37,721 bases of DNA from a virus, in IMG/VR virus record IMGVR_UViG_3300037293_000456, positions 1-37,721 of that record, one strand, 5' to 3'. The translations under genes were made by a program, and so were the position numbers. The notes beneath the pieces are model-generated. The model was not told the origin of the DNA. It searched no databases and saw nothing but the letters and a program-made list of their open reading frames with translations. Each line of letters begins with the position of its first letter. The first letter of the stretch is position 1. Shown one piece after another: positions 6,257 to 37,721 of this stretch.

Positions 6257-9200
6257 GTGGCACCCCCAAAGATTGCGCAGGACTGGATGAACGCGTCAAA
6301 GCCCGCGTCGTCATCGAGGTCCTGCAAAACCTCGCGCGCGGTGCGGCTGGTGCCGTCGGGCATTTCGATGGGAAGGCTGCCGAATTCCGCGTCGAGGTCT
6401 GCGGCGACCCTTCGCGCGGCGGCGTCGGGGTTGACTGTGCCGATCGCGGCGGTGGTCGCATCGCGAACCCCCTGGGCCACCGGGTTGCGGCGGGTCAGCG
6501 GGGCGTCAGGGGTGGTTGGTGGGGTGTCGGGGGTGGGCTTATCAGGCGCGCCCGGATCGGCGCGCGGGGTCAACCCTTGGCGAGAGCCTTCCGCGCCTTC
6601 CGGCGTTCGAACATCGCTTCCGATATACGATCCTCGATCGCTTCCATTTCCGCCAGCGACATCAGCGGATACTTCGGGGCCACCTTCAAGGATGCCTCGG
6701 GGCTGTCCAAGGGCAGCGTTGTTGTCGATACGGGCATAGCCATCTGCAATTCCTTTCGCTTTCAGTATCTGGTACGTGCGGGGCGCGCCGTCAATGCCGT
6801 CCGCCATGACACCCGGCGGAATGAACCGCCCCGTGGCGACGCCGCGCCCAATCATGCGGTCGATCACAACCCCGGGCGCGGTGACGATTTCGAACAGATC
6901 AACCTCGTAACCGTCCTCTTTCAGCCTGGCGACAAGACGCTCAATGCTGGCCGGACTTCCACCAAGCTTCGGCAACAGAAGATTTGTGCCTTCGTCAATC
7001 AGCCGATCCAGCGCAAAGTTGCTCAGCTCGGCGCTTTCCTCATGCACGGCTGCGGCACCCTCGCCGCGCCCGTATTCCGGAATGACCTTTTTGGCTTCGT
7101 CTGCATCGACGATGGCGGCACCGCGCGCGCGGGCCAGCGGATTTGAAATCACCGACTTTCCGGCAGCGGGCGGCCCGATCAGGATTTTTGCCTTGCGCTC
7201 AGCGCGGATCGTGCCGGGGGAAAGGCCCTCATCGCTCCAACCAAGCGCAAGGGCACGCTTCACAAGATACGTGACGGCGGCATCCCTGCCTAGCAGATCA
7301 CCGCCTTCGGCATCACGATACTTGCGCTGTTGCCAAAAGGCATCGGTGCCATAGCCGTCCAGCATCGTGGTGGGCGCGATTGCCTGCTGTGCCGCAATTG
7401 CCGCACGATAGTCGGGGTTTTCTTCCGCCAGGCGGGCAAGGACAGCCCCCGCATCAAACATTGGCTCAGCCGCCGTTACGGGTGCCGCTCGACCCTCGAT
7501 GTCGGCCCTGATTTCTGCGTCTGCGGCCATGGCCTCGGGGCTGGCGGCTCCCTGATCGAACCCGTCCTCGGCCAGCATGGCGGCGGGGGGGGCAGGGGTT
7601 TGGGTGCTGCGCGGGGTGCCCAGATCTTCGGGCAGGTCGGCAAAGGTCTTGTTGTCGATCGCGCGCAGCACGTCGCGCGGGCCCGGCGCGTCGAACAGCG
7701 CGCCGCTGGCACCTGCGCGGCGGGCATCGTCGGCATACCGGGTGAGGAACCCTGCCACGTCATCGGCGGATGCAACCCGCCCGTTGCGCCAGAACTTGCG
7801 CACCAGCGCCACGGTCAGCGGGGCCACCGGGCCTGCCAGCAGATCGACCTCGTCCAGCATCTCGTCCAGGGCCTTGCCGATCGACAGACCTTCGCGCGAT
7901 GACAGGGCGCGGGCGTTGCCGATCAGCAGCATCGCGTCGATGACATGGCCGGAAATGTCCATCTCGGGCACGACGCGGCCCGCCTCGATGTCGGCGCGCA
8001 GGGCCACCCAGGACGGGGCGGCACGTTCCAGCGCGTCCATCAGGGATTTCAGATCGCCCGCGTCGGTTTCGGTGTAGCGGGTCAGGATGGTGGGGTCAGG
8101 CCAGGCACGGGCAAACAGCGCCTCGCGCAGCTGGCGCTGGCCCTCGCGGTTCAAAAGCCCCTTGTCGTCGAACAGCGCGTTGCGTTCCGACCGCGACAGT
8201 GCCGCCAGCACGGCCCTGACGAACCCGCCATTGGCATCGGCCGTCAGCGGCTGCGTGGGGTCCAGCCGGGCCACCACAGGGGCGGTCATCGCCTGCGATT
8301 GCGCACGGGCCATGTCGGTCGAGGACATTCTGGCCACGCCGCTGTCTTGTGCTGCGACCGTAAAGCGTTGCAGATCGTCGTCCGTCATCGCACTGGTGCG
8401 ACGGGCAATCAGCACGGGGCGTTCGACGCCTTGGGGAACGGCATAGCCTGCGGCCTCGATGGCGGTGCGGTAGGCGGTGGCGCGGTCCGGGGCTTGGGCG
8501 TAAGCGCGTTCGATGGCGGCCACGCGACCGTTGCCGCTTTCGATCATGCCGTTCTGGCCTACAATCGGCGGGCCATGGCTGGCATCGGGCGATGGCAGCA
8601 GCAGCGCCGGATCGAGCCGTGCCGCCGTATCGGCAATCCACGCATCCGATGTGATGCGGCTGCGGTCGCGCGGCTGAAACCTGCCCGACGCGCGGGTGAG
8701 GCTGGACACATCGACCACCTCGTATTGGACATCGATGCGGAATTCGTCGCCCGCACTGACCTGCCCGGTGCCGGTGTAGCCCCGGCTGGTGGTGTAACCG
8801 GAATAGTCGGGCATGTCGGTGCTGGCGTTGGGGTCATAGGCCCGGCGCATCTTGCGCTGCGACCAGCCGCGCAGATCGGCTGCGGTGAAATCGGCGAAAC
8901 TCTTGTTGCCGAACCGGATGCCTTTGTTGGCGGCGATTTCCTTGGGGGTCATCAACTGGGCAATCGGCGTGTCCAGCGGGGCAGACAGCGCACGCACCGC
9001 ACCGCCCGGCCCCATGAAATGCGCAAGGTAAATCTCGCCCGGTCCGGCGGGCAGACCTTTGGCGCGCAGCATGTCGTGGTTTTCGCGGGCATAAAGCCGG
9101 GTCATTTCGGCGTTGATCTGCCCATCGTCGCGCAGGGCCAGCACTTCGTTCGGGGTGCGGCCTTCCATCAGGTCGGGCCGGTGGCGGCGGATCATGTCCA

Positions 9201-22335: not shown

Positions 22336-24132
22336 TTAGCCTCCATAGGGGTTGAACACGTCGAAACCGGTTTGCAGCCCACCGGCAGGCTCGGCGCGGC
22401 CCATCGCTGACCCGCCGTTGCGGCCCGGCAGGGATGCGCCCACGCCGGGAAAGCTGAATTTGGACAGGCCACTGGGCAAACCTTCGGACAGCAGCAGGTA
22501 TTGCCCCGCGTCATGCACGTTGGCTTCGGTCAGGCTCTTGTCGGGCACCTTGCGCTTGTCGCCGCTGGCGTCGATTTCGTCTTTCCAGACATACCGCGCC
22601 TCGAACCCCCGGATCAGAAATTTGCAGCTGGGGTCAATCAGCAGGCCGGGCCGTCCGCCGTGGATGAACTCCAGCGCCGCGCGCACGGCCTCCAGCCGCG
22701 GCTGAATGCGGTTGGTGCCGATCTTCTGCGGCCGCACCCGAAACCCTGCCGCCTGCCCCACCAGCTTGTTCCAGGTGGCGTTTTCATCCGCCGCCTGCGA
22801 TGCGCCATGCTCGCCCGCCATGTCGCCGTATGCCGCCTCGACCTCGATGCCCGGCCAGCGCCGTTCCAGCAGTTCGGCCAGGCGCTGGCCAAAGGTGACG
22901 GCCATCAGCCGTTCCGCAGGAAAATGCAGCTCTCCAAGGATCAGCCAGTGGAACGGGGCCACGAACTGCCCGATCAAGGCAGCCCCCTTGAAGCCCTGAT
23001 CAAGACCGATGCGCAACGGCACGCCCGGCTCAGGCGCAATCGTGCCCTCGGCCACATGGATGCGGCGGTTGTATTCGCGGCGGAACACCGGATCGCCCGC
23101 GCGCAGGTAGACGATCTTGTTCAGGATCAGCCGGTCGATCATGTCGCCGCGCCCGGCCAGCCGCATCGCGGCGATCTGGCGCGGATAATAGGCCGCCGAC
23201 AGGTTGATCAGGTTTTCGCAACCGGGCAGGCCGTAGCCCGGCTGATTGTAGAATTCGATCCGGATGGCGCGGCTGCCAGCGGGCAGCCCGGCAGTCATCG
23301 CCTCCGCCATCCGGCGGCGTTCGTCCGCGTCGTGGAACACCCGGAAAGCCCAGTTGTCCTCGTCCGGCGCGTTGAAGTCGCAGATGATCTGGCCGTAGCC
23401 GCGCAGCTCGGGCGGATAGCCCGCGAAATGGGCCGCACCCGGCCAACGGTCGATCCGCCCGATGCCTGCGGTCAGCACCTCGACCGGCACGGTGTCGGTC
23501 TCGTTCAGCCAGATGTCGGTGGTCTGCACGCCGCGCATGGATGCGATCACGTCATCGCCGAACGCCATGAACTCGACCCGAAACTCGATCGGTCCGTTGC
23601 CGTCTTCGAATTCGATCACATGGGTCACCGGGTCGCCGCGCCCGCCAGACCACTTGCCCAGCGCCTTGGGGTAGACCTCAAGATAGCTGGGGATCGTGGT
23701 GGACCATAGCTGGCGGTACGTCTCGCGCACCACCAGCAGCTTGTAGCGCCGCCAGCCGACCTTGGTGCCATCGGCGCGGGTGTGCAGGTCGATGGTGCTG
23801 CGCGGCATGTCCGTGGCCCGGCGCAGGCGCGATTTCAGGGTGGTGGTGGTCTTGCCGCTGCCGACCGGGCCTTGAATGCCAAGGATGTCGGCGTCCGACC
23901 AATACAGCATTTCGGCAATCGGACCGGGAAAGGTCGGGGCGTCAGGTGGCATCTTGTCAGCGCCACCGCCCGGCGCTAGCGTGGTGACCGCGTCGGCTGC
24001 ATCCATGCCGATCAGCGCGTCGATGGCGTCAGGCTCAACCGGCGCGGCCACACCCCCCCGATCGCCATCCGCCACCGAACGGGAAACCCTGCCCCCCCAA
24101 CCCCATTGCGCAGATTTCAAGATCGCGGTCAT
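22336..24132 (-). CDS. terL: Terminase large subunit (ATPase and nuclease)
   Basis: A 598-residue DNA-packaging motor. I chose the ATG at 24132: it overlaps the stop of the 81-codon frame upstream (ATGA), and residues beyond it in the longer frame are Arg/Pro-rich shadow. The ATPase half has Walker A GPVGSGKT at residues 88-95 and a Walker B-like TTDIWLNETD. The nuclease half has acidic positions in RIGLDQGFKG and AAYGDMAGEHG. The protein would dock on the portal, translocate DNA into the procapsid and cut concatemers. Confidence 0.9.
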   Translation of the reverse strand: MTAILKSAQWGWGGRVSRSVADGDRGGVAAPVEPDAIDALIGMDAADAVTTLAPGGGADKMPPDAPTFPGPIAEMLYWSDADILGIQGPVGSGKTTTTLKSRLRRATDMPRSTIDLHTRADGTKVGWRRYKLLVVRETYRQLWSTTIPSYLEVYPKALGKWSGGRGDPVTHVIEFEDGNGPIEFRVEFMAFGDDVIASMRGVQTTDIWLNETDTVPVEVLTAGIGRIDRWPGAAHFAGYPPELRGYGQIICDFNAPDEDNWAFRVFHDADERRRMAEAMTAGLPAGSRAIRIEFYNQPGYGLPGCENLINLSAAYYPRQIAAMRLAGRGDMIDRLILNKIVYLRAGDPVFRREYNRRIHVAEGTIAPEPGVPLRIGLDQGFKGAALIGQFVAPFHWLILGELHFPAERLMAVTFGQRLAELLERRWPGIEVEAAYGDMAGEHGASQAADENATWNKLVGQAAGFRVRPQKIGTNRIQPRLEAVRAALEFIHGGRPGLLIDPSCKFLIRGFEARYVWKDEIDASGDKRKVPDKSLTEANVHDAGQYLLLSEGLPSGLSKFSFPGVGASLPGRNGGSAMGRAEPAGGLQTGFDVFNPYGG

Positions 24133-24374
24133 ACCCGACCCCCTGTCGGCCTGAAAAGGTGGAATGGGGTCACACAGAGGGGGAGAGAGACTTGCGCGCC
24201 GACGCCCCCCCCGGTGTCGCGTTCCGCGTTCGTTCTGCCTTGTGGCGAAAGGCGGGTGGGGGTGGCGATGCGGACCAGGACGGCAGGCATTGCCCGGCGG
24301 ATCACGGCGCGCGGTTGATTTTTGATCAACCAACCGGACCGGATTTTACCCTGCGATTTCAACACGTTGATCAT
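24129..24374 (-). CDS. Possible small gene between terminase subunits
   Basis: An 81-codon frame (MINVLKSQGKIRSGWLIKNQ...) whose ATG overlaps the TGA of the small-terminase candidate (ATGA) and whose own TGA overlaps the TerL ATG (ATGA). This double coupling, matching the rest of the operon, is the main argument for a real gene. The first half has GC-rich codon ends as expected of local genes; the second half (GGGVGAQVSLPLCVTPFHLF) looks less like normal protein. It could instead be a spacer translated only to keep ribosomes coupled to terL. A 7-bp inverted repeat (24313-24319 with 24325-24331) lies inside it. Confidence 0.4.
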   Translation of the reverse strand: MINVLKSQGKIRSGWLIKNQPRAVIRRAMPAVLVRIATPTRLSPQGRTNAERDTGGGVGAQVSLPLCVTPFHLFRPTGGRV

Positions 24375-25060
24375 TCCGTCCTAACTTCGCCGTCCGAATG
24401 GCAAGATGCGCCTTCGCTAACCTGTTGATTTTCCTGTATTTCCCATGGCATCGGCGGAGGACCGACCCGGCGCGCCGATGGCGTCACATCCCGCGCCACC
24501 GCAGCCCGGTCAACAGCACGATCGACAGCCATCATCGGTGCGGCCGGGCTTGGCATCTGGACGATCTGCGTCACCTGGAGGGACGCGACGTCCGGCGTGA
24601 CCTTGGCCAGCCCATACGGCAACAACGCCTCGACGGCCCGCAGTTGCGCCGTGAACACGAACTGGAACGTCGCCAGCCGCTGCCCGGTGGTGGGCCGGTT
24701 GTCCAGCTCCTTGGTGATCAGAACGCCGTCCTTGATCACCTCGACCACGTCCCGCGCACCCGACTGCGCCCAGATCAGCACCTGCTCGGTGCGCTGCAGC
24801 GCCGTCAGGAACGCATCCGCCCCGCTCGCCATGCCAGCCATCTCGGCCAGCACATCCTCGGGCAGCCGAAACCCCTTGGCGGCCAGCCACTCGCGCATCT
24901 GATTGGTCGCGCGCCCCTTGCCACGCGGCGGACGCCCAGCCTCACCCGCCGTGGCCTCGTCGGGCAGGAATGTCAGCTGCTCGCCCGCCTGCGCCGCCGC
25001 CTCGATCGACACCGCCGCCTGCCGCGCAAGGTCTTCGAACTGGGTTTTCGGGGATGTCAT
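24371..25060 (-). CDS. Probable terminase small subunit / DNA-binding protein
   Basis: A 229-residue protein immediately upstream of the terL unit. The basic segment GRPPRGKGRATNQMREWLAA (residues 42-62) followed by helices (EDVLAEMAGMASGADAFLTA) suggests DNA binding. The central QRTEQVLIWAQSGARDVVEV region is helical and could oligomerise. The C-terminal 50 residues are Pro/Met-rich and flexible, as in small terminases that hand DNA to TerL. Length and position fit the small subunit that recognises the packaging start. No canonical helix-turn-helix is obvious, so the name rests on context. It is the first gene left of the repeat/promoter region. Confidence 0.55.
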   Translation of the reverse strand: MTSPKTQFEDLARQAAVSIEAAAQAGEQLTFLPDEATAGEAGRPPRGKGRATNQMREWLAAKGFRLPEDVLAEMAGMASGADAFLTALQRTEQVLIWAQSGARDVVEVIKDGVLITKELDNRPTTGQRLATFQFVFTAQLRAVEALLPYGLAKVTPDVASLQVTQIVQMPSPAAPMMAVDRAVDRAAVARDVTPSARRVGPPPMPWEIQENQQVSEGASCHSDGEVRTE

Positions 25061-25163
25061 GGCTCAAAAACTACCCTTTTTGAACGATTTCAACAGGTTG
25101 ACCACCCACACACACCACTTCAGGCCCGGTGTGTGGGTCGGTGTGTAGGTCGGTGTGTAGGTC

Positions 25164-25191
25164 TTATTACTAAATATCTCTATCTTTTCAG
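25164..25191 (-). promoter_or_regulatory. Candidate late promoter P1 toward terminase genes
   Basis: On the minus strand CTGAAA (25191-25186), a 16-base spacer and TAATAA (25169-25164) lie in the AT-rich core, about 100 bases upstream of the small-terminase start. One 11-bp repeat sits right at the expected transcription start, so a repeat-binding protein could block or activate it. Confidence 0.4.
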
Positions 25192-25270
25192 GTAGATAGA
25201 CAGACACACACACTGACACACAGGAATAGCGCGCACAGGTGCACGGCTGCGCACACACGCACATGCACAC

Positions 25271-25300
25271 ATATAAGGGGGGCGGTTTTCGGTGTGTCAG
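25271..25300 (-). promoter_or_regulatory. Candidate late promoter P2 toward terminase genes
   Basis: On the minus strand CTGACA (25300-25295), an 18-base spacer and TTATAT (25276-25271). The -35 overlaps a repeat copy (GGTGTGTCAG). Together with P1 it would start the packaging and virion transcript separately from early replication genes. Confidence 0.4.
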
Positions 25301-25527
25301 TGTGTAGGTGTGGGTCAACCCCTTGAGCATGCTGACAAAAGACCCACACACCGCACCTACACACGCACCCACACACCACTGCAGGCCCGGTGTGTGGGGG
25401 TCAGCCCCCGAACCCGTGGCCTGCGACCAGTGCCGCCGCGTCTTAAGGTCTGCAAAACGGGTCCGGGTCCGGGCCGAAAAGTGAGGCGCGGCGGGGGTTT
25501 GGCGTATGATCACAGCGTGGGGGTGCA

Positions 25528-27651
25528 TCAGACAAAGTCCTCCATGCCGTCAGGCAGGGCGACGGACGGTGCCGCGCTGTCAGCAGGTGCCGCGCCTTGA
25601 GCTGATACAGTTGCGGGGAAGTGCAAAAGACCGGGGATCGAGGCGAACGGCACTTCGGTTCCACGGGTCCGGGTGCCGTCGAAATACCGCGCCTCGACAG
25701 CGCGGCCCCCGACGGCACCCTTGATGCGCACCGCAGACTGGCTCCAGACACCGTTGGCCCAGTCCGACCGGGCGAACAGATCCTTCAGACCCTGCAAGGG
25801 CTGGGTGGCGATGAACAGCGTGGCGGACTGGCCGGTGCCGATGATCCGCAACCCGGCCTTGCTCAGCTTGCTGTTGGCCTCTTTGGCGCGGGCGGCGCGG
25901 CCTTCGCGGTCGGTTGAATAGCCGTCCAGCAGCGCACGCGGCGCGCCGGGCAGATCGGCTGCCACCATGATCCACTGCGCGATGTTGAACTGTTCGCCCT
26001 TGCGGTAGATGTCGTAGGGCTGGGTCAGCAGGTGCAGCAGCATCGCGTCGGCGTCGTTGCCGACCTCGTCGGCATCGACCTTGACTTGCGCAGAGATCTT
26101 GCGGGCCCAGCCGGTCATCTCGTCGGCATTGGGCAGGGCAGCCTGGCGCGCCATGCAGGCCATCGCCAGCACGGTCGCCCAGTTGTCGCCGTTGCGCCCA
26201 CCCAGACCTTCGGCGGCGAAGGCGTCGCGCCACAGCGACAGACGCTCTTTCCAGGTGGGCCAGCGGTCGATCAGGATGCGCTTCAGGACGGCCCCGCGCT
26301 TGCGCCACGTTTCGGCACGCAGGGGGCCTGCCTTGGGTGCGTCGTCGCCCCGGTCGTTCAGGCTCATGACGATCAGACGGCTGACGTCCTGCGCCTTCAG
26401 CTTGCCGGGGATCAGGATCGAGCTGAACAGGAACGACGAATAGACGTTGCCGCTGGCGCCCTTCTGGTCTGCCGATCCGCGCACCCACTGGCCGCCGGAA
26501 CTGGCGACACGGGCCAGAACGATAATGTCGGCCTCCTTGTTTGACCCCTCGTTGCCGGGCTCCAGCTCGTCGAGGGCGACGGGCAGCGACGAATGGCCCA
26601 GACGCGCAGTCAGACCGGCCTTGGTGGCATCGTTGGTCTTGATCAGTCCCTTGGGTCCGTGGATATGTTCGATCAGATCGTGAAATCGGCTTTTGCCTGC
26701 GGCCTTGGGGCCGGTCACCCAGAACGTCGGCCGCCAGTCCAGCGCGCCGCCCAGCATCTGCACGCCCAGCATCCCCAGACAGATCATCGGATCTATGTCG
26801 GGGCGCTGCCAGACCCACGTCTCGAATTCGGCGTGGATGGCAGAGATGGCCGTGTCGGCGCGGCCAGCGTCAAAGTCGCCTGCTGCGATTGGGGCGGGGA
26901 TCGGCGGATAGGCCGGGTAGATGCGGCTGTGGTGGGTGCGGGGTTCGGTTATCGCGCCGCCCATCACCAGCCGGTTGCCCAGGTGATAGATCAGCGCGCC
27001 GTCATCGTCCTTCCATGCGCCGACGCCGCGCACAGCGCCTTCGGGGTCAAACACGCCCCGATCGGCGCAGGCGCTGATGATGTCGGACATCGCCCGGCCC
27101 TGGTCAAATGCCATGGGCTTGGGCTTGCGCGACCCCTTGGCAAAGGTCGGATAGCGGTGGTGCAGCTGGTGCTGCAAATTGCCAAACAGGGTGGCGATGG
27201 TCTGGGTATCGACCTTGACCTCGGCGCGCAGCTGGCCGTGCACGTCCAGCAGGTATTGAAGCTTGCCGCTGACACCCAGCGCCTTGACCGGGCAGCCGTC
27301 CCAGATTTCGCCATGCGGGCGCGGCGGGCCTTTGGGCGGCGGCGGGGCGGGTTGGTCGCGGTCTGCATCGGCATCGGGCGGGGCAGGGTTTTTGGGTGCG
27401 TGGTCTTTGGGTGCGGGTCTGCGGGCAGCGGGTGTGGTGCCAGCTTTCGGCGCTGCCACGATCGGCGGGTTGTCGAGCTGGTCTGCAAGTGCATCGACCG
27501 GCGTCAGCGATTTGCGCGCGCGGGGTTTGGGTGCGACCTTTGGCGGTGGCTCGGATACGTTGGCAGGCGCAACCGGATCGCCCACACGGCGGGGCGGCGG
27601 GACGGGGTTGTCAAACCAGTCGTCGGCGCTGTCTGCGTTGTCTGTGGTCAC
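25528..27651 (-). CDS. Replicative P-loop helicase / primase-helicase-like ATPase
   Basis: A 707-residue protein. The start is the GTG at 27651, which overlaps the upstream stop (GTGA); a longer ATG-started frame contains 54 Arg/Pro-rich shadow residues. Residues 15-115 are a disordered Pro/Ala linker. The ATPase core begins near residue 270, with Walker A GPKAAGKS at 314-321 and Walker B-like LPVALDELE at 356-364 (acidic pair Asp361-Glu362). It then runs through VARVASSGGQWVRGSADQKG and FSSILIPGKLKAQDVSRLIV, as in phage or plasmid superfamily-3-like helicases and DUF927-type proteins. It is encoded just after the Toprim primase, so the two probably form the phage replisome loader or unwinding unit. 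The exact family needs a profile search. Confidence 0.75.
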   Translation of the reverse strand: MTTDNADSADDWFDNPVPPPRRVGDPVAPANVSEPPPKVAPKPRARKSLTPVDALADQLDNPPIVAAPKAGTTPAARRPAPKDHAPKNPAPPDADADRDQPAPPPPKGPPRPHGEIWDGCPVKALGVSGKLQYLLDVHGQLRAEVKVDTQTIATLFGNLQHQLHHRYPTFAKGSRKPKPMAFDQGRAMSDIISACADRGVFDPEGAVRGVGAWKDDDGALIYHLGNRLVMGGAITEPRTHHSRIYPAYPPIPAPIAAGDFDAGRADTAISAIHAEFETWVWQRPDIDPMICLGMLGVQMLGGALDWRPTFWVTGPKAAGKSRFHDLIEHIHGPKGLIKTNDATKAGLTARLGHSSLPVALDELEPGNEGSNKEADIIVLARVASSGGQWVRGSADQKGASGNVYSSFLFSSILIPGKLKAQDVSRLIVMSLNDRGDDAPKAGPLRAETWRKRGAVLKRILIDRWPTWKERLSLWRDAFAAEGLGGRNGDNWATVLAMACMARQAALPNADEMTGWARKISAQVKVDADEVGNDADAMLLHLLTQPYDIYRKGEQFNIAQWIMVAADLPGAPRALLDGYSTDREGRAARAKEANSKLSKAGLRIIGTGQSATLFIATQPLQGLKDLFARSDWANGVWSQSAVRIKGAVGGRAVEARYFDGTRTRGTEVPFASIPGLLHFPATVSAQGAAPADSAAPSVALPDGMEDFV

Positions 27652-27923
27652 GCGCGGGCCTCCGGGTGATCGGGGCCGTAGTCGTTCAGGGTGTCCGCCC
27701 GTTCGCCGCGACGGATGCCTCGGGCCAGCTGGGCGATGGCATCGCCGCGCGACAGGAAGCGGCGCTGCGTCAAGGCATCGCTGACCGCCAATACCAAGTG
27801 CTTGCTTGACCATTTGGCGACGCTGTAGTTTGCCAGAAACCGGATCGCCGGGGATGCGCGATCATGCGCCGCAAGATCCTCGGTCCGCGTCGCGAGGTGG
27901 TCGCCATACCCGTTGCCGCTCAT
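27648..27923 (-). CDS. Small protein between micro-ORFs and helicase, unknown function
   Basis: A 91-residue protein starting MSGNGYGDHLATRTEDLAAH. The ATG at 27923 overlaps the TGA of the 38-codon micro-ORF (ATGA), and its stop overlaps the helicase GTG. The core (SPAIRFLANYSVAKWSSKHL, then LAVSDALTQRRFLSRGDAIA) is helical and basic, which could suit DNA or helicase binding. By place it could be a helicase loader or accessory factor, but that is only a guess. Readings extending upstream of 27923 are shadow. Confidence 0.6.
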   Translation of the reverse strand: MSGNGYGDHLATRTEDLAAHDRASPAIRFLANYSVAKWSSKHLVLAVSDALTQRRFLSRGDAIAQLARGIRRGERADTLNDYGPDHPEARA

Positions 27924-28036: not shown

Positions 28037-28105
28037 CTAACCGGCCTCGATGCGGGCCGTCTGCACTGTCGGGGTCATCAGAAACAGGATCAGCAGCCAG
28101 TCCAT
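28037..28105 (-). CDS. Coupled 22-codon hydrophobic micro-ORF
   Basis: An open frame of 22 codons beginning MDWLLILFLMTPTV. Its ATG overlaps the primase stop (TGATG), and its TAG touches the next ATG. The peptide is a single short hydrophobic segment (WLLILFLM) that could sit in the inner membrane. Being so short, it could be chance, but the double coupling matches the operon's pattern. Confidence 0.4.
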   Translation of the reverse strand: MDWLLILFLMTPTVQTARIEAG

Positions 28106-29280
28106 CAGGCCACTCCCTGCCGCTGTTGCTCACTCGCCAGCGCCGCGCGCAGGCGGTCGTTCAGATCTTCGCCCGGAACGTCCGACTGTACGACCCGCAC
28201 CACACGGCCACGGGCGGCATGCGCCTCGATGACGCCTGCCAGCGTGGCGCGCGCGTCCGGGTGTGCGTCGGCGTCGGCCAGGATCACCACCTCGGCCACA
28301 TTCGCGGGCAGATCGACCGCCCCCATGTTTCCCAGGCTGACCCCGGCCAGCACCCGCAGATCGGGGCGCAGGATGATGGCCGACAGGGCGGTTTCAATCC
28401 CTTCGGCGATGTAGATGCGGGTGCCGGGCGGGCATTCGGCCAGCCTTGCCGCTTTGCCGCCGCGCGGGCCGATGCCCGACGACAGACGCACCGACCCGCC
28501 CCAGAACGACCCGAGGATCTTCTTGGCATCGGGCACCTGCAACTTGCCCCAGCACCCATTCGTGGCGATCGCCAGATAGGTGCGGTGGGTGCCGATATGC
28601 GCCCCCGTGCCATCGGTCACCGCCGCAACCATGGCGGGCAGCCTCAAGGGCGGCAGGCGGCGCGTGGTGACCTCGCCGGTGTCAGTATCGGTCAGCTCTT
28701 CGTCATCACGAAAATACAGGCATTCGGGGTGATAGCGCAGGGCACGCGGCTGCCAGCCGATGCGCGACAGGTCGATGCTACGGTGGCGCAGATAGTGGTC
28801 CACCGGCGTGCCTGCGATTTTTTCCTGCGCCGACAGCCACAGCCCTTGCGCCGCGCGCTGACTTTTCAGCTTGCGGGCCTTTTGCGCCTCGACTGCCGCC
28901 GCGCGGTCGGCTTTGGCACGGGTCGCTGCGGCATCGCGCTGCCGCCTCAGCTCGGGGCTTTCGGTATCAAGGCCCAGAACGGCGCGGGCCTCTTTGATGG
29001 CGTCGGTCAGGCTGACGCCAAGGCTCAGCGCGATCAGATCAAGGATGTCACCGCCCTTGGGGTGGCTGGCAAAATCGACCCAGCGCCCGGCGTCGGGGCC
29101 GGACAGGGTAACGCAGAACGACCCGACGCGGGTGTCGGCGCGGCCGGGGTTCAAGGTGAAATACCGCCCGCCCTTGCTGTAGCTGCCGATGGCAGGCGGG
29201 GCATAGCGGTCAACGACGCTGTCCAGCTGCGCCAGCAGCCGGTCCTTGATGTCGTCGATGCTGACCGTCTGCCGGGTCAT
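28105..29280 (-). CDS. Toprim-domain DNA primase
   Basis: A 391-residue primase-like protein. Residues 25-105 (GRYFTLNPGRADTRVGSFCV, GGDILDLIALSLGVSLTDAI) resemble the N-terminal domain of phage/plasmid primases, but without a classical zinc-ribbon. Residues 110-140 are a charged helix. The Toprim core shows catalytic Glu293 (YIAEGIETALSA) and the acidic pair Asp336/Asp338 (VVILADADAHPDA), needed for metal binding and primer synthesis. It starts 1 base before the end of the upstream gene's stop region and overlaps the micro-ORF below. It is likely to act with the helicase encoded next. Confidence 0.85.
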   Translation of the reverse strand: MTRQTVSIDDIKDRLLAQLDSVVDRYAPPAIGSYSKGGRYFTLNPGRADTRVGSFCVTLSGPDAGRWVDFASHPKGGDILDLIALSLGVSLTDAIKEARAVLGLDTESPELRRQRDAAATRAKADRAAAVEAQKARKLKSQRAAQGLWLSAQEKIAGTPVDHYLRHRSIDLSRIGWQPRALRYHPECLYFRDDEELTDTDTGEVTTRRLPPLRLPAMVAAVTDGTGAHIGTHRTYLAIATNGCWGKLQVPDAKKILGSFWGGSVRLSSGIGPRGGKAARLAECPPGTRIYIAEGIETALSAIILRPDLRVLAGVSLGNMGAVDLPANVAEVVILADADAHPDARATLAGVIEAHAARGRVVRVVQSDVPGEDLNDRLRAALASEQQRQGVA

Positions 29281-29281
29281 G

Positions 29282-30382
29282 TCAGAAGCCCGCCAGCATG
29301 GCCTGCAGGGCGATATTCACCTCGGCCCGCTTGAACCGCTTGCCGTCCAGCAGCACCTCGAACCGCGCCTTGATGTCGCGGTCTGACAGATCCATCTCGA
29401 CCACGATTTCCTGCAACGGCCAGCCCAGACAGGACAGCCGCAGCAGATCGGCGTCGCGCTCCAGCGTCCAGATGAGGCCGCGCGGCACATCGCGCAGGTG
29501 CTGTGCCAGTGATGGGGGCGGTGCGGCGGGCACGGTGGCGGGCACGACAGGAGCTGGCGGAGGCACAACGCCCGGGCAGCTAAACATCATGTTGTGCGTG
29601 TTGCGCAGCGTTGCGCCGGACAGTCGAACAATACCCCCAGAAGGGGCATAAGGCGCGGCCATCTCGGGCGGGTGTGTCACCGGCTCAGGCACCGGATCAA
29701 CCGTCGCAGTCGGGCCTGCCGCGTCCAGGATCGCCGCAACCCGCGCGCCCAGAACATGACGCAGCCGCCATCCGGTGCCCTCGACCGGGCGGTGCAGCGC
29801 AACGGCGGTCAGGTCGCGCGACATCTTCACCGAATGCCCGGCCAGCCGATGCTGGGTGAACACCTCGATCGCCGTAGCGTCCTCTTCGGCGGTCCAGGGC
29901 GACCCCTGCATCGCGCGCACCGACCCCGGTGCCGGATCGACTGGCTTGGCATGCGCGAACATCAGTGGCGCGCCGGAAACGAGCTTGCCGTCGCCGATTT
30001 CATATGGCGCTAAAGCTGGCGGCACGACAGGTGCTGGTACCCCCGCCGTGCCTTCCGTTACCGCCCCGGTGTGCTCGGCGGCTTCGGAATGGGGTTTGTT
30101 CCCCCCGGCATTCGTGACTGCCGGGGGTTGCGCCTTCTCTGCGTCGGGATGGGGGAGGTCCAGCCATGGCGCAGGGGCGGTTGGGGTTGGCAAGGCCGCG
30201 CAGGGCGGCGTGTCAACATCGGGCATCAGCAGATTGCTTTTCAGTGTGACCGGCTGGCCCGGTGTCAGATCGAACTGCACCGTGATGCCGAAATTTGCCA
30301 GCACATCGCCCGCGTTGATGATCGCGCGAAAGTTGGCCGACAACAATTCCAGTTCGGCCAGCGACAGGGTGTTCAACTTCAT
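29282..30382 (-). CDS. Protein with two Myb/SANT-like segments; possible DNA-binding replication or control factor
   Basis: A 366-residue protein. Residues 1-50 are a helix-strand start (LSLAELELLSANFRAIINAG). Residues 55-155 are a disordered Pro/Ala linker. Residues 161-212 resemble a Myb/SANT-type fold (SPWTAEEDATAIEVFTQHRL ... RPVEGTGWRLRHVLG), and residues 303-345 resemble a second one (LIWTLERDADLLRLSCLGWP, then LSDRDIKARFEVLLDG), joined by another Pro-rich linker. Both have the Trp...Glu-Asp start followed by three helices. Such folds bind DNA. It is encoded upstream of the primase, so an origin-binding or regulatory role is possible; this is inference. It overlaps its upstream neighbour by 4 bases. 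Confidence 0.6.
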   Translation of the reverse strand: MKLNTLSLAELELLSANFRAIINAGDVLANFGITVQFDLTPGQPVTLKSNLLMPDVDTPPCAALPTPTAPAPWLDLPHPDAEKAQPPAVTNAGGNKPHSEAAEHTGAVTEGTAGVPAPVVPPALAPYEIGDGKLVSGAPLMFAHAKPVDPAPGSVRAMQGSPWTAEEDATAIEVFTQHRLAGHSVKMSRDLTAVALHRPVEGTGWRLRHVLGARVAAILDAAGPTATVDPVPEPVTHPPEMAAPYAPSGGIVRLSGATLRNTHNMMFSCPGVVPPPAPVVPATVPAAPPPSLAQHLRDVPRGLIWTLERDADLLRLSCLGWPLQEIVVEMDLSDRDIKARFEVLLDGKRFKRAEVNIALQAMLAGF

Positions 30383-33387: not shown

Positions 33388-33579
33388 ATGACGACCTTTG
33401 CTTTCGTGGCTGCGATCATCGCGGCGCTGATGATCGGGGCCACGCTCGGGATCGGGATCATGACGATCTTCATCGTCGGATCGCGCGGTGACGGGCCACC
33501 AGCCCAGGACAGCGAGTTTGATGCCTCGATCAACGAATGGGGCTACATCGGCGAACGCCGCGGATCGGGGGATTTGTGA
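33388..33579 (+). CDS. Small membrane protein
   Basis: A 63-residue protein with one long hydrophobic N-terminal segment (residues 3-31: FAFVAAIIAALMIGATLGIG ...) and a soluble acidic tail (QDSEFDASINEWGYIGERRG). A single-pass inner-membrane protein is likely. Its stop overlaps the excisionase start (TGATG). Function is unknown. Confidence 0.6.
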   Translation: MTTFAFVAAIIAALMIGATLGIGIMTIFIVGSRGDGPPAQDSEFDASINEWGYIGERRGSGDL

Positions 33580-33854
33580 TGACCGCCGCTACGTCCCCCG
33601 CCCGCATGTTCCTGATCAGCGCCGAAGTGGCGGGCCTGCTCGATCTGACCCGGCACACCTTTTTGCTGCGCCGCGAAACCCTGATCGACCAGCACGGATT
33701 TCCCGAACCGATGCCGCATTCCGCCTCGCCGTTGCGCTGGCGGCGCGATCAGGTCGAGGCATGGATTGCCCAGGCGGGCATGCCCCGTGCGGTGCCTGCC
33801 GAACGCCCACGCGGCCCCAACGTGTATCTGATGGAAGAGGCGCGCCGCGCATGA
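33579..33854 (+). CDS. AlpA/MerR-type excisionase-like DNA-binding protein
   Basis: A 91-residue protein. Residues 10-65 match the winged-helix pattern of AlpA-like excisionases: FLISAEVAGLLDLTRHTFLL, then the P-E-P-M-P substrate turn, then SPLRWRRDQVEAWIA. The ATG at 33579 overlaps the previous stop (TGATG); an earlier in-frame ATG would read into that gene. Its stop overlaps the integrase start (ATGA). It should direct integrase toward excision and may also regulate this cluster. Confidence 0.75.
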   Translation: MTAATSPARMFLISAEVAGLLDLTRHTFLLRRETLIDQHGFPEPMPHSASPLRWRRDQVEAWIAQAGMPRAVPAERPRGPNVYLMEEARRA

Positions 33855-35041
33855 CCCGCAAACCGCAGGAACCCGTGTTCAACCCACCGATCCGCCTGCG
33901 GCAGCGCCTGCGGGCCACCGGCACATGGCGGGTCTGGTGGGAACCCCGGCCCGAAGATCGCATCCTCGGGTTTGACGCCGTGGATCTTGACGCCAGCCGT
34001 CCCGACTGGTGCAGGCGGGAAGCTAACCGGCTGAACGCCGAAGTGACCCGCGCCGCCAAGGCCGGTTCGCGCAGCGGCGCACCCGGGCGGGGCCGCAAGA
34101 TCGAGGATCTGATCCGGCTTTACAAATCGGGCACCGCCTGGTCGCGGCTGGCCATCAAGACGCATGACAGCTACGGCAAGCTGCTGACCATCATTCAGGA
34201 CAAATGGGGCCAGTCCAGCGTCGCGGAATTCGACAAGCCGGTGATGCACACCTGGAATGAGACGCTGGTGACCGCGCGGGGCGGCACGATGGCGGTGCGG
34301 CTGATCCGCATGATGTCGATCCTGTTCAGCCAGGCCGAGTTGAACGGATGGCGGCCGGAAAACAGCAACCCTTGCTTTCGGCTGAAACTGCAAACCCCGG
34401 CACCGCGCAGCCGTCAGGCCGACTGGGCCGAATTCGACGCGCTGGTGGCGGCGGCGGAACATCTGGGGTTTCACGCGGCGGCGCTGGCAATCAGGCTCGC
34501 GTGGTTTCAGGGGCCGCGCCAGACCGATGTGCTGCAGGCGCGGCGTGGCGCCTTTGCACTGCGGGCGATCGAACAGGGTGCCGCCCCGGAATGGGTCTGG
34601 ACGTTTGTGCGGTCCAAGCGCGGCAATTTGGGCGTGATGCCCATTCACGCCGAACTCGTGCCGCACCTGCGCCGTGCGCTGCTCGATGCGGGCACGGCAG
34701 ACCGGCCGCGCGGGCCGGATGATCCGCTGATCCTCGACGACGCGGTCGGGCGGATGTACGACGAACACCTGTTCGCCAAACGCTTTGCCACCATCCGCGC
34801 GACGGCGGCAAAGCAGCTGCCCGCGATCGCCAGCCTGCAATTTCGCGATCTGCGCCGGTCGTTCGGGGTGCAGGCCCGGCGCGGCGGGGCATCCGACAAC
34901 GACGTGGGTGATGTCTTGGGCAACTCGGTCGCCCGCAACGCCCTGCTGCAAGAAACCTACGTGCCCCCCAGCTTTTACACCGCCGCCCGCGCCGTCCACG
35001 CCGTGACGCGCCCGGCCTCAACGAAAGGCAGCACTTCGTGA
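33851..35041 (+). CDS. int: Tyrosine recombinase / phage integrase with altered active site
   Basis: A 396-residue integrase. Residues about 85-185 form the SAM-like core-binding domain, and residues 190-380 the catalytic domain. Catalytic candidates are Arg223 (GPRQTDVLQ), Lys256 (VRSKRGNLG), Arg335 (FRDLRRSFG) and the nucleophile Tyr370 (LLQETYVP). The usual His of H-x-x-R is Arg332, and the usual second His (LGHS) is Asn358 (LGNS). Both substitutions lie at positions that tolerate some change in this family, so the enzyme is probably still active. I chose the ATG that overlaps the excisionase stop; upstream codons in the same frame belong to other genes. It is expected to recombine the phage with the tRNA-Asn site 1.2 kb away. 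Confidence 0.85.
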   Translation: MTRKPQEPVFNPPIRLRQRLRATGTWRVWWEPRPEDRILGFDAVDLDASRPDWCRREANRLNAEVTRAAKAGSRSGAPGRGRKIEDLIRLYKSGTAWSRLAIKTHDSYGKLLTIIQDKWGQSSVAEFDKPVMHTWNETLVTARGGTMAVRLIRMMSILFSQAELNGWRPENSNPCFRLKLQTPAPRSRQADWAEFDALVAAAEHLGFHAAALAIRLAWFQGPRQTDVLQARRGAFALRAIEQGAAPEWVWTFVRSKRGNLGVMPIHAELVPHLRRALLDAGTADRPRGPDDPLILDDAVGRMYDEHLFAKRFATIRATAAKQLPAIASLQFRDLRRSFGVQARRGGASDNDVGDVLGNSVARNALLQETYVPPSFYTAARAVHAVTRPASTKGSTS

Positions 35042-36241: not shown

Positions 36242-36280
36242 TGGCTCCGGCGGTAGGGATCGAACCTACGACCAATTGAT
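36242..36280 (-). other. Predicted attachment site (att) in 3' part of tRNA-Asn
   Basis: No direct repeat can be shown because the other prophage end lies outside the window. The prediction rests on the tRNA 3' end facing the prophage and the nearby integrase. The core is expected within the T arm and acceptor 3' strand, possibly extending to the anticodon loop. The exact boundaries here are a guess. Confidence 0.4.
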
Positions 36281-36316
36281 TAACAGTCAACTGCTCTACC
36301 GCTGAGCTACGCCGGA
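36242..36316 (-). tRNA. tRNA-Asn (anticodon GTT), likely prophage attachment gene
   Basis: A 75-nt tRNA including encoded CCA. Acceptor stem TCCGGCG pairs with CGCCGGA, with discriminator G and CCA. The D arm is GCTC..GAGC, the anticodon stem GTTGA/TCAAT around CTGTTAA (anticodon GTT), and the T arm GTAGG-TTCGATC-CCTAC. All stems pair perfectly. The 3' end (36242) faces the prophage and the integrase lies 1.2 kb away, the usual arrangement when phages integrate into the 3' part of a tRNA gene and restore it. Confidence 0.95.
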
Positions 36317-36647: not shown

Positions 36648-37721
36648 ATGGCCCTCATCACCCTTCGCCAACTTCTCGACCACGCCGCCGAATATGGCTA
36701 CGGCGTGCCTGCCTTCAACATCAACAACATGGAACAGGGCCTTGCGATCATGGAGGCCGCCAAGGCCACCGATGCCCCGGTGATCATCCAAGCCAGCCGA
36801 GGCGCGCGCGCCTATGCCAACGATATCATGCTGGCCAAGATGATCGAGGCGCTGGCCCAGATCTATCCGGACGTTCCGCTGTGCATGCATCAGGACCACG
36901 GCAACAACGAGGCGACCTGCCTGTCAGCGATCAAACACGGCTTTACCAGCGTGATGATGGACGGCAGCCTGATGGGCGACGGCAAGACCCCCGCCGACTA
37001 TGACTACAACGTGGACATCACCGAACGCGTCAGCACGATGGCCCACATGGTCGGCGCCTCGGTCGAAGGCGAGTTGGGCGTGCTCGGCAGTCTGGAGACC
37101 GGCGAATCCGAGGCCGAGGACGGCCACGGTGCGACGGGCAAGCTCGATCATTCGATGCTGCTGACCGACCCCGATCAGGCCGTCGATTTCGTGGCCCGGA
37201 CCAAGGTCGACGCCTTGGCCATCGCCTGCGGCACCAGCCACGGTGCCTACAAGTTTTCGCGCAAACCGACCGGCGACATCCTTGCGATGGGCGTGATCGA
37301 GGCGATCCACAAGAAACTGCCGAACACCCATCTGGTGATGCACGGCTCGTCGTCAGTGCCGCAGAACCTGCAAGACATCATCAACGAATTCGGCGGGGCA
37401 ATGCCGCAGACCTTTGGCGTGCCGGTCGAAGAAATCGTGCGTGGCATCAAGATGGGCGTGCGCAAGGTCAACATCGACACCGACTGCCGCATGGCGATGA
37501 CAGGCCAGTTCCGCAAGATCGCAACGCAAAACCCGGCAGAATTCGACCCGCGCAAGTTCCTGAAACCAGCGATGGATGCGATGCGCGAGGTCTGCAAACT
37601 GCGGCTTGAGGCCTTCGGCACTGCGGGGCAGGCTGGCAAGATCAAGGTCATCGCGATGGAAGACATGGCGAAACGCTATGCCAACGGGTCCATGAACCCG
37701 ACGGTTTCCGCCGCAGGCTGA
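36648..37721 (+). CDS. fba: Class II fructose-bisphosphate aldolase (chromosomal)
   Basis: A 357-residue, full-length enzyme ending at the last base of the window. It splits fructose-1,6-bisphosphate into DHAP and glyceraldehyde-3-phosphate, or joins them in gluconeogenesis and the Calvin cycle. Class II features are [12 protein letters not shown] near the start, the metal/catalytic [29 protein letters not shown], the His in [10 protein letters not shown], and the phosphate loop with [10 protein letters not shown]. The length and the long C-terminus match the Calvin-cycle-type (CbbA/FbaA) subfamily common in alphaproteobacteria. AAAAGG lies about 8 bases before the ATG. It is host, not phage, and marks the chromosomal side of the insertion. 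Confidence 0.95.

Follow-up and report, generated by a model that had tools for sequence, protein, structure and literature searches.

A putative phage replication origin whose iterons co-vary with the C-terminal domain of an adjacent Cch/SaPI Rep-like helicase

Results

The virus record IMGVR_UViG_3300037293_000456 (37,721 nt), analysed here at full length and hereafter called the window, contains a repeat array at 25104-25399 that occupies the noncoding interval from a helicase gene to a presumed small terminase gene (terS). The surrounding genes lie on the minus strand. A fast-evolving early protein with weak Myb/HTH-like matches in relatives (29282-30382) is followed by a toprim primase (28105-29280; DUF7146 + Toprim_3), a 761-aa open reading frame assigned to phrog_21086/phage primase (25528-27813), the array, a 229-aa protein (24371-25060) and the large terminase (22336-24333; phrog_2). 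The 761-aa frame, whose real start is probably near 27650, encodes a Cch/SaPI-Rep-like AAA+ helicase, which we propose as the initiator. The 229-aa gene was presumed to be terS by position only, because it is located before the large terminase gene, and no family match backing this identity was found for its product. Upstream of the primase gene, the early protein occurs in two barely alike versions (window, L036, L040, L046, L063 and L064), and a C-terminal W-T-x-x-x-D-x-x-L motif is conserved in relatives.

Given that the right end carries a tRNA-Asn (36242-36316) and a class II fructose-bisphosphate aldolase gene of host type (36648-37721), and that an integrase-like gene is present (33488-35041), we interpret the record as an integrated prophage, the tRNA-Asn and aldolase region near the integrase end being the probable host flank and integration site. 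The record has its own large terminase, and in the loci of relatives a gene in portal position and other late genes follow the large terminase; the element is not a satellite devoid of structural genes in the SaPI sense.

The initial annotation had described a clustered 11-bp repeat in both orientations, which motif counts bear out. Allowing up to one mismatch, GGTGTGTRGGT has ten matches in the window, nine of them within 25104-25399 (0.81 expected), while all eight exact matches of GTGTGTNGGT in the window lie inside the array (0.23 expected; eight reached in 0 of 100 shuffles). In helicase orientation, the elements are ordered as follows: +, − − −, IHF-like site, + + (+), alternating purine/pyrimidine (R/Y) tract, − −, AT-rich tract, + + +, −. 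The iteron on the helicase side (25389-25399, plus strand) carries one mismatch and is followed by a far cluster of three minus-strand iterons at 12-13 bp steps (25342-25377; individually 25342-25352, 25355-25365 and 25367-25377). An IHF-like site on the minus strand (25316-25328; GCTCAAGGGGTTG, two mismatches to WATCAANNNNTTR) stands where relatives carry a better one. Beyond it lie a plus-strand iteron at 25299-25309 between degenerate copies (25291-25316), the R/Y tract of 28 bp (25248-25275) and two degenerate minus-strand iterons (25202-25221) at the place where relatives have a tandem cluster with 8-bp spacing. The AT-rich tract (25161-25201), a candidate DNA unwinding element, contains TATCTACCTGAAAAGATAGA (25179-25198), resembling the tract of relatives. 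Its terS side is occupied by three plus-strand GGTGTGTRGGT iterons (25128-25162), and the site closest to terS is an inverted iteron with one mismatch (25104-25114, minus strand).

The exact 12-bp steps of these three copies (25128, 25140 and 25152) had been noted before and are real, as is the AT-rich stretch of 38 bases, since the 38-mer starting at 25161 has 26% GC and ties for the lowest GC content of any 38-mer in the 37.7-kb window. The two reported stem-loops were also recovered, as perfect 10-nt inverted pairs (25104-25113/25129-25138 and 25368-25377/25389-25398), but are simply neighbouring sites in opposite orientation, and the label "telomere-like" describes a surface resemblance only. 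On the helicase side, a left-boundary region on the minus strand (25406-25464) holds the element GGGTTCGGGG at 25406-25415 and a degenerate copy of a promoter-like ACCC-N-GCCANNAT element at 25438-25464. No sigma-70-like site reached the scan threshold at the two leftward promoters that had been proposed.

An Rfam search gave no match, and no DNA similarity to plasmids was found. Searching the collection with the window's own repeat returned low-complexity coding repeats and unrelated arrays but no homologous origin, and thus the site sequence itself is not conserved. In two unrelated viral contigs, GGTGTGTCGGTA or GGTGTGTAGGTA recurs in tandem every 12 bp, in one case as an array that looks coding or iteron-like (L013, 7790-7960) and in the other at a contig end (L011, 1-85).

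Relatives were collected via the helicase (L005, L006 and L036-L065) and via the presumed TerS (L066-L133), and more than 50 related phages have an array at the same location with a fixed plan of about twelve sites in alternating orientation. In most of them, one 8-mer is repeated many times in both orientations downstream of the helicase gene, with a median of 12 sites per 760 bp compared to 0.67 in shuffles. This 8-bp site is phage-specific yet uniform within each phage, with 27 spellings in 46 non-redundant phages, for example CCACAACG, CCACGACG, CCACTACG and CTACAACG, and further CCATACCG, CCGCTACA, GCAAAACA and CTGAAACC. What stays constant is the geometry. In helicase orientation, a plus pair spaced by 8 bp, a minus pair spaced by 12 bp, an IHF-like site and a second plus pair at 8 bp make up the first half, and the R/Y tract, two to three minus sites at 8 bp, the AT-rich tract, a plus pair and a minus pair, both at 12 bp, and finally terS make up the second. 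Accordingly, successive same-strand spacings are dominated by 8 bp (112 cases) and 11-12 bp (112 cases). The IHF-like site is present in 41 of 47 phages (5.9 expected), and the alternating purine/pyrimidine run has a median length of 25 bp compared to 8 in shuffles. Taken over all phages, the AT-rich tract stands out less clearly: only 36% of them fall below the 5% level of shuffles drawn from the same GC-poor region.

The window array keeps the element order of its relatives, albeit with a 12-bp period, and its own site spelling is atypical. Its nearest-type relative, L136, has sites of the kind GTACACAC/ACACACCG at both 8- and 12-bp steps. Where the initial annotation had proposed to look for the repeats and their phasing in related prophages, the outcome was therefore divided: the exact GTGTGTRGG is absent from most relatives, whereas order and phasing are conserved, and a layout kept while the sequence differs is the expectation for a co-evolving initiator/iteron pair. 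A GC-skew inflection, likewise suggested, was found in the window as a local minimum at 25388 within 15-33 kb; among relatives, minima at the array were weakly enriched (8 of 37, 4.4 expected), for which reason GC skew was not used as evidence.

The array lies directly downstream of the helicase gene except in four relatives (L119, L121, L124 and L127), in which apparent cargo genes of 0.6-2.1 kb intervene and the array remains beside terS, away from the helicase gene, a placement that speaks against an origin tied to the helicase; no cargo genes were seen in the array-terS interval of these four. The helicase accompanies every TerS locus for which sufficient sequence is available upstream; the remaining loci begin at contig ends. 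Downstream of a distant helicase relative (31% identity) in the human gut phage MT835534.1 (L034), an array of AGAACC-type repeats was observed at about 6960-7240.

A structure model of the window helicase (pLDDT 84.6) gave SCCmec Cch (5dgk) as the best fold match, with a Z score of 16.8 over 415 residues, followed by SaPI5 Rep with 15.1. At the sequence level, 10 of 29 relatives gave weak DUF927 matches (best E 1.5e-4) and the window helicase itself gave none, and a PDB sequence search yielded no useful match; an AAA+ core of the DUF927/D5-like kind is supported for the window helicase by its fold match to Cch and SaPI5 Rep. The C-terminal domain (residues 584-745; 25579-26064, minus strand) is predicted to be winged-helix-like, and we propose that it binds the iterons. 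Modelled alone (pLDDT 88.9), it showed no strong fold match, all Z scores being under 4, and the best of these weak matches were residues 451-567 of SaPIbov1 Rep (Z 3.7) and oriT-bound TcpK (Z 3.6).

As a single protein that binds all sites should have a binding domain that diverges together with the sites, we compared the divergence of proteins and sites by Mantel tests of distances that controlled for the helicase core (residues 166-560); the iteron registers of divergent phages, the window included, were assigned by hand, which limits this comparison. Helicase residues 561-761 correlated with the sites with a partial r of 0.42 (p 0.002, n=28) and showed a sliding peak at 670-740. In 46 thinned phages, the value for residues 651-735 was 0.28 (p 0.002), and residues 690-735 gave 0.35 (p 0.0005, n=48). 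The covariation was weaker when canonical iterons only were used (690-735, partial 0.18, p 0.01; 651-735, p 0.10). Primase, portal and TerL reached 0.17-0.25 without significance (p 0.05-0.13), and no correlation with the sites was found for the HTH-containing early protein or for f14, f15, f25 and f31. Among the proteins compared, the helicase C-terminal domain is thus the only part whose divergence follows that of the sites, with a peak at residues 690-735, which supports this domain as the determinant of iteron recognition.

Individual phage pairs illustrate the same relationship. L040 and L049 share 96% identity in TerS, 99% in TerL and 98% in the primase but 89% in the helicase, with differences mostly in the last ~200 residues, and their sites changed from CCACGACG to CCACTACG at nearly all aligned array positions. 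Conversely, L037 and L038 have identical sites and helicases that are 96% identical, with TerS just 68% identical. Between L063 and L078, position 3 of the site changed from A to G in 10 of 12 sites together with a change of helicase residue 710 from T to K.

Residue 710 belongs to the first strand of the predicted wing hairpin, or beta-wing. A basic residue occupies this place in 13 of the 14 phages whose sites have G at position 3, compared to 2 of the 40 others. A tree of the helicase core yields seven independent pairs with different bases at position 3, and residue 710 changed in the same way in 5.8 and in the opposite way in 0.0 of these (p 0.03), ranking first among 956 column tests. 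Four of five newly fetched prophages fit this rule, one of them (L138) being close to a phage already used; L136 (Lys with A), L109 and L056 are exceptions, and for the window, whose helicase has Tyr at this position, the rule is not established. A simple residue-to-base code elsewhere was rejected: mutual-information hits were scattered over the protein, and only the pair of residue 710 and base 3 survived the tree-based test.

Discussion

From sequence comparison and predicted structure, we consider it highly probable that the array is the replication origin of the phage and that its iterons are read by the adjacent self-loading initiator helicase of the Cch/SaPI Rep kind. The iteron-origin reading of the initial annotation is thereby strengthened, with the same place and conserved geometry in more than 50 relatives and sites that co-vary with the C-terminal domain of the neighbouring helicase. 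As a self-loading initiator of this kind, the helicase (25528-27813) would recognize the iterons by its winged-helix-like C-terminal domain, whose beta-wing carries residue 710. The mechanism that we infer, from physical binding through IHF binding and melting to origin activity, is as follows: helicase hexamers would assemble on both sides of the AT-rich tract while IHF bends the DNA, the helicase would melt the tract, and the adjacent toprim primase would then prime synthesis. Across related phages, all site copies drift in concert within a fixed layout, and the C-terminal domain of the helicase changes alongside. As the promoter-like element and GGGTCNGGG mark the helicase-side border of the array, origin activation or late expression may be aided by transcription that enters it.

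It is rather unlikely that the array instead represents a packaging start site of the cosB or pac type, at which the small terminase and IHF bind the repeats and packaging begins. Such a site would fit the location of the array directly upstream of the presumed terS in all relatives, which is retained despite insertions on the other side, and the IHF-like sites; lambda cosB likewise has repeats and IHF beside terS, its R sites being bound by gpNu1. However, the divergence of the presumed TerS shows no correlation with that of the sites (partial r −0.08, p 0.72-0.84), as is also apparent from L040/L049, in which sites differ next to nearly identical TerS proteins, and from L037/L038, in which the reverse holds. 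In addition, about twelve sites with an AT-rich core are unusual for cosB, and the 229-aa protein is a TerS by position only.

We regard as improbable that the array serves mainly as a late-gene switch, meaning an operator array that is bound by a phage regulator and controls the terS/structural operon. Its position between early and late genes would suit this role, as would a promoter-like element (ACCC-N7-10-GCCA-NN-AT) that points to terS, occurs in its strict form in 23 of 44 relatives (0.0 expected) and stands mostly 36 bp before the first site. This element is reminiscent of an extended -10. A GGGTCNGGG-like element, which bounds the array on the helicase side, is found in 40 of 44 relatives. 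In the window, in contrast, the copy of the promoter-like element is degenerate and no consensus promoter passed the scan, the early HTH protein shows no site covariation, and the sole co-varying domain found belongs to the helicase. Of the switch that had been suggested as an alternative or additional role for the array, the conserved element before the array in relatives remains in favour, and a secondary role may exist, for example repression of late transcription by bound helicase.

A lambda O-like origin, in which iteron recognition and helicase loading would fall to the HTH-containing early protein (29282-30382), is the least probable alternative: the protein is encoded in the replication gene cluster, evolves fast and has the weak Myb/HTH matches mentioned above, but in the same 20 phages its divergence gave a partial correlation of −0.37 with the sites compared to 0.51 for helicase residues 690-735, its HTH segments are nearly the same in L040 and L049 despite the different sites of these phages, its two non-alike gene versions co-occur with the same sites, and the array is noncoding and separate from the HTH gene, not inside the initiator gene as for lambda O. 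The Myb/HTH early protein was consequently rejected as the iteron reader.

For a putative origin read by the helicase, a more far-reaching proposal is that these phages form a replicon family with a fixed chassis of about twelve sites that all change together, in at least 27 spellings matched by the wing of the C-terminal domain. We see the chances of this proposal as evenly balanced. If true, orthogonal origins would be specified by a naturally occurring recognition code, and competition with co-infecting phages, satellites or origin-directed nucleases may have driven it. A natural series of initiators and origins that differ by single bases and residues would allow a direct test of how specificity changes jointly across about twelve dispersed sites, and offers a sequence-only route to locating origins and to sorting phages into replication compatibility groups. 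It would also extend the self-loading-helicase replication plan of SaPI and SCC elements to complete temperate phages of Alphaproteobacteria.

Among known systems, the SaPIs come close. Their origins have iterons flanking both sides of an AT-rich tract, as in this array, and SaPIbov1/SaPI5 Rep is an AAA+ helicase from the superfamily of the helicase described here, likewise with the C-terminal domain as proposed iteron reader and the origin directly downstream. In phage P4 (alpha protein with ori and crr), the initiator is similarly a helicase that binds DNA through a C-terminal domain, and short iterons form two clusters, but alpha has an AEP primase in the same chain and the two repeat regions are kilobases apart. 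SaPI Rep is reported to bind, via its C-terminal domain, the iteron origin directly downstream of its gene, and Cch2 binds direct repeats downstream of its operon via the same domain (PMC7581432), while TcpK reads tandem 9-mers with a beta-wing (PMC6137059); we use SaPI Rep and TcpK as analogies for what this helicase may do. In contrast to the SaPIs, the present arrays are carried by complete temperate alphaproteobacterial phages (with organism names available for just two loci) and not by satellites, a separate toprim primase takes the place of the AEP primase, and a fixed alternating plan of about twelve sites, an IHF-like site and an R/Y tract are combined with a spelling that varies in concert from phage to phage. 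The window helicase has its best structural match in SCCmec Cch (DUF927), at very low sequence identity, and Cch2 differs in having merely three 5-nt iterons. Unlike what a cosB reading would entail, the sites do not co-vary with TerS. In PLE satellites of Vibrio, the DNA-binding domain of the initiator RepA and the iterons swap together (PMC8263062); RepA is, however, a RepA_N initiator with three ~30-bp semi-palindromic iterons, whereas single-base drift across about twelve 8-bp sites is seen here. Thus, precedents exist both for the covariation of domain and iterons, in PLE satellites (PMC8263062), and for the helicase/iteron plan, in SaPI and SCC elements, while the complete-phage setting, a fixed chassis with many sites, the number of spellings and a candidate residue for specificity are new with respect to the open-access literature searched.
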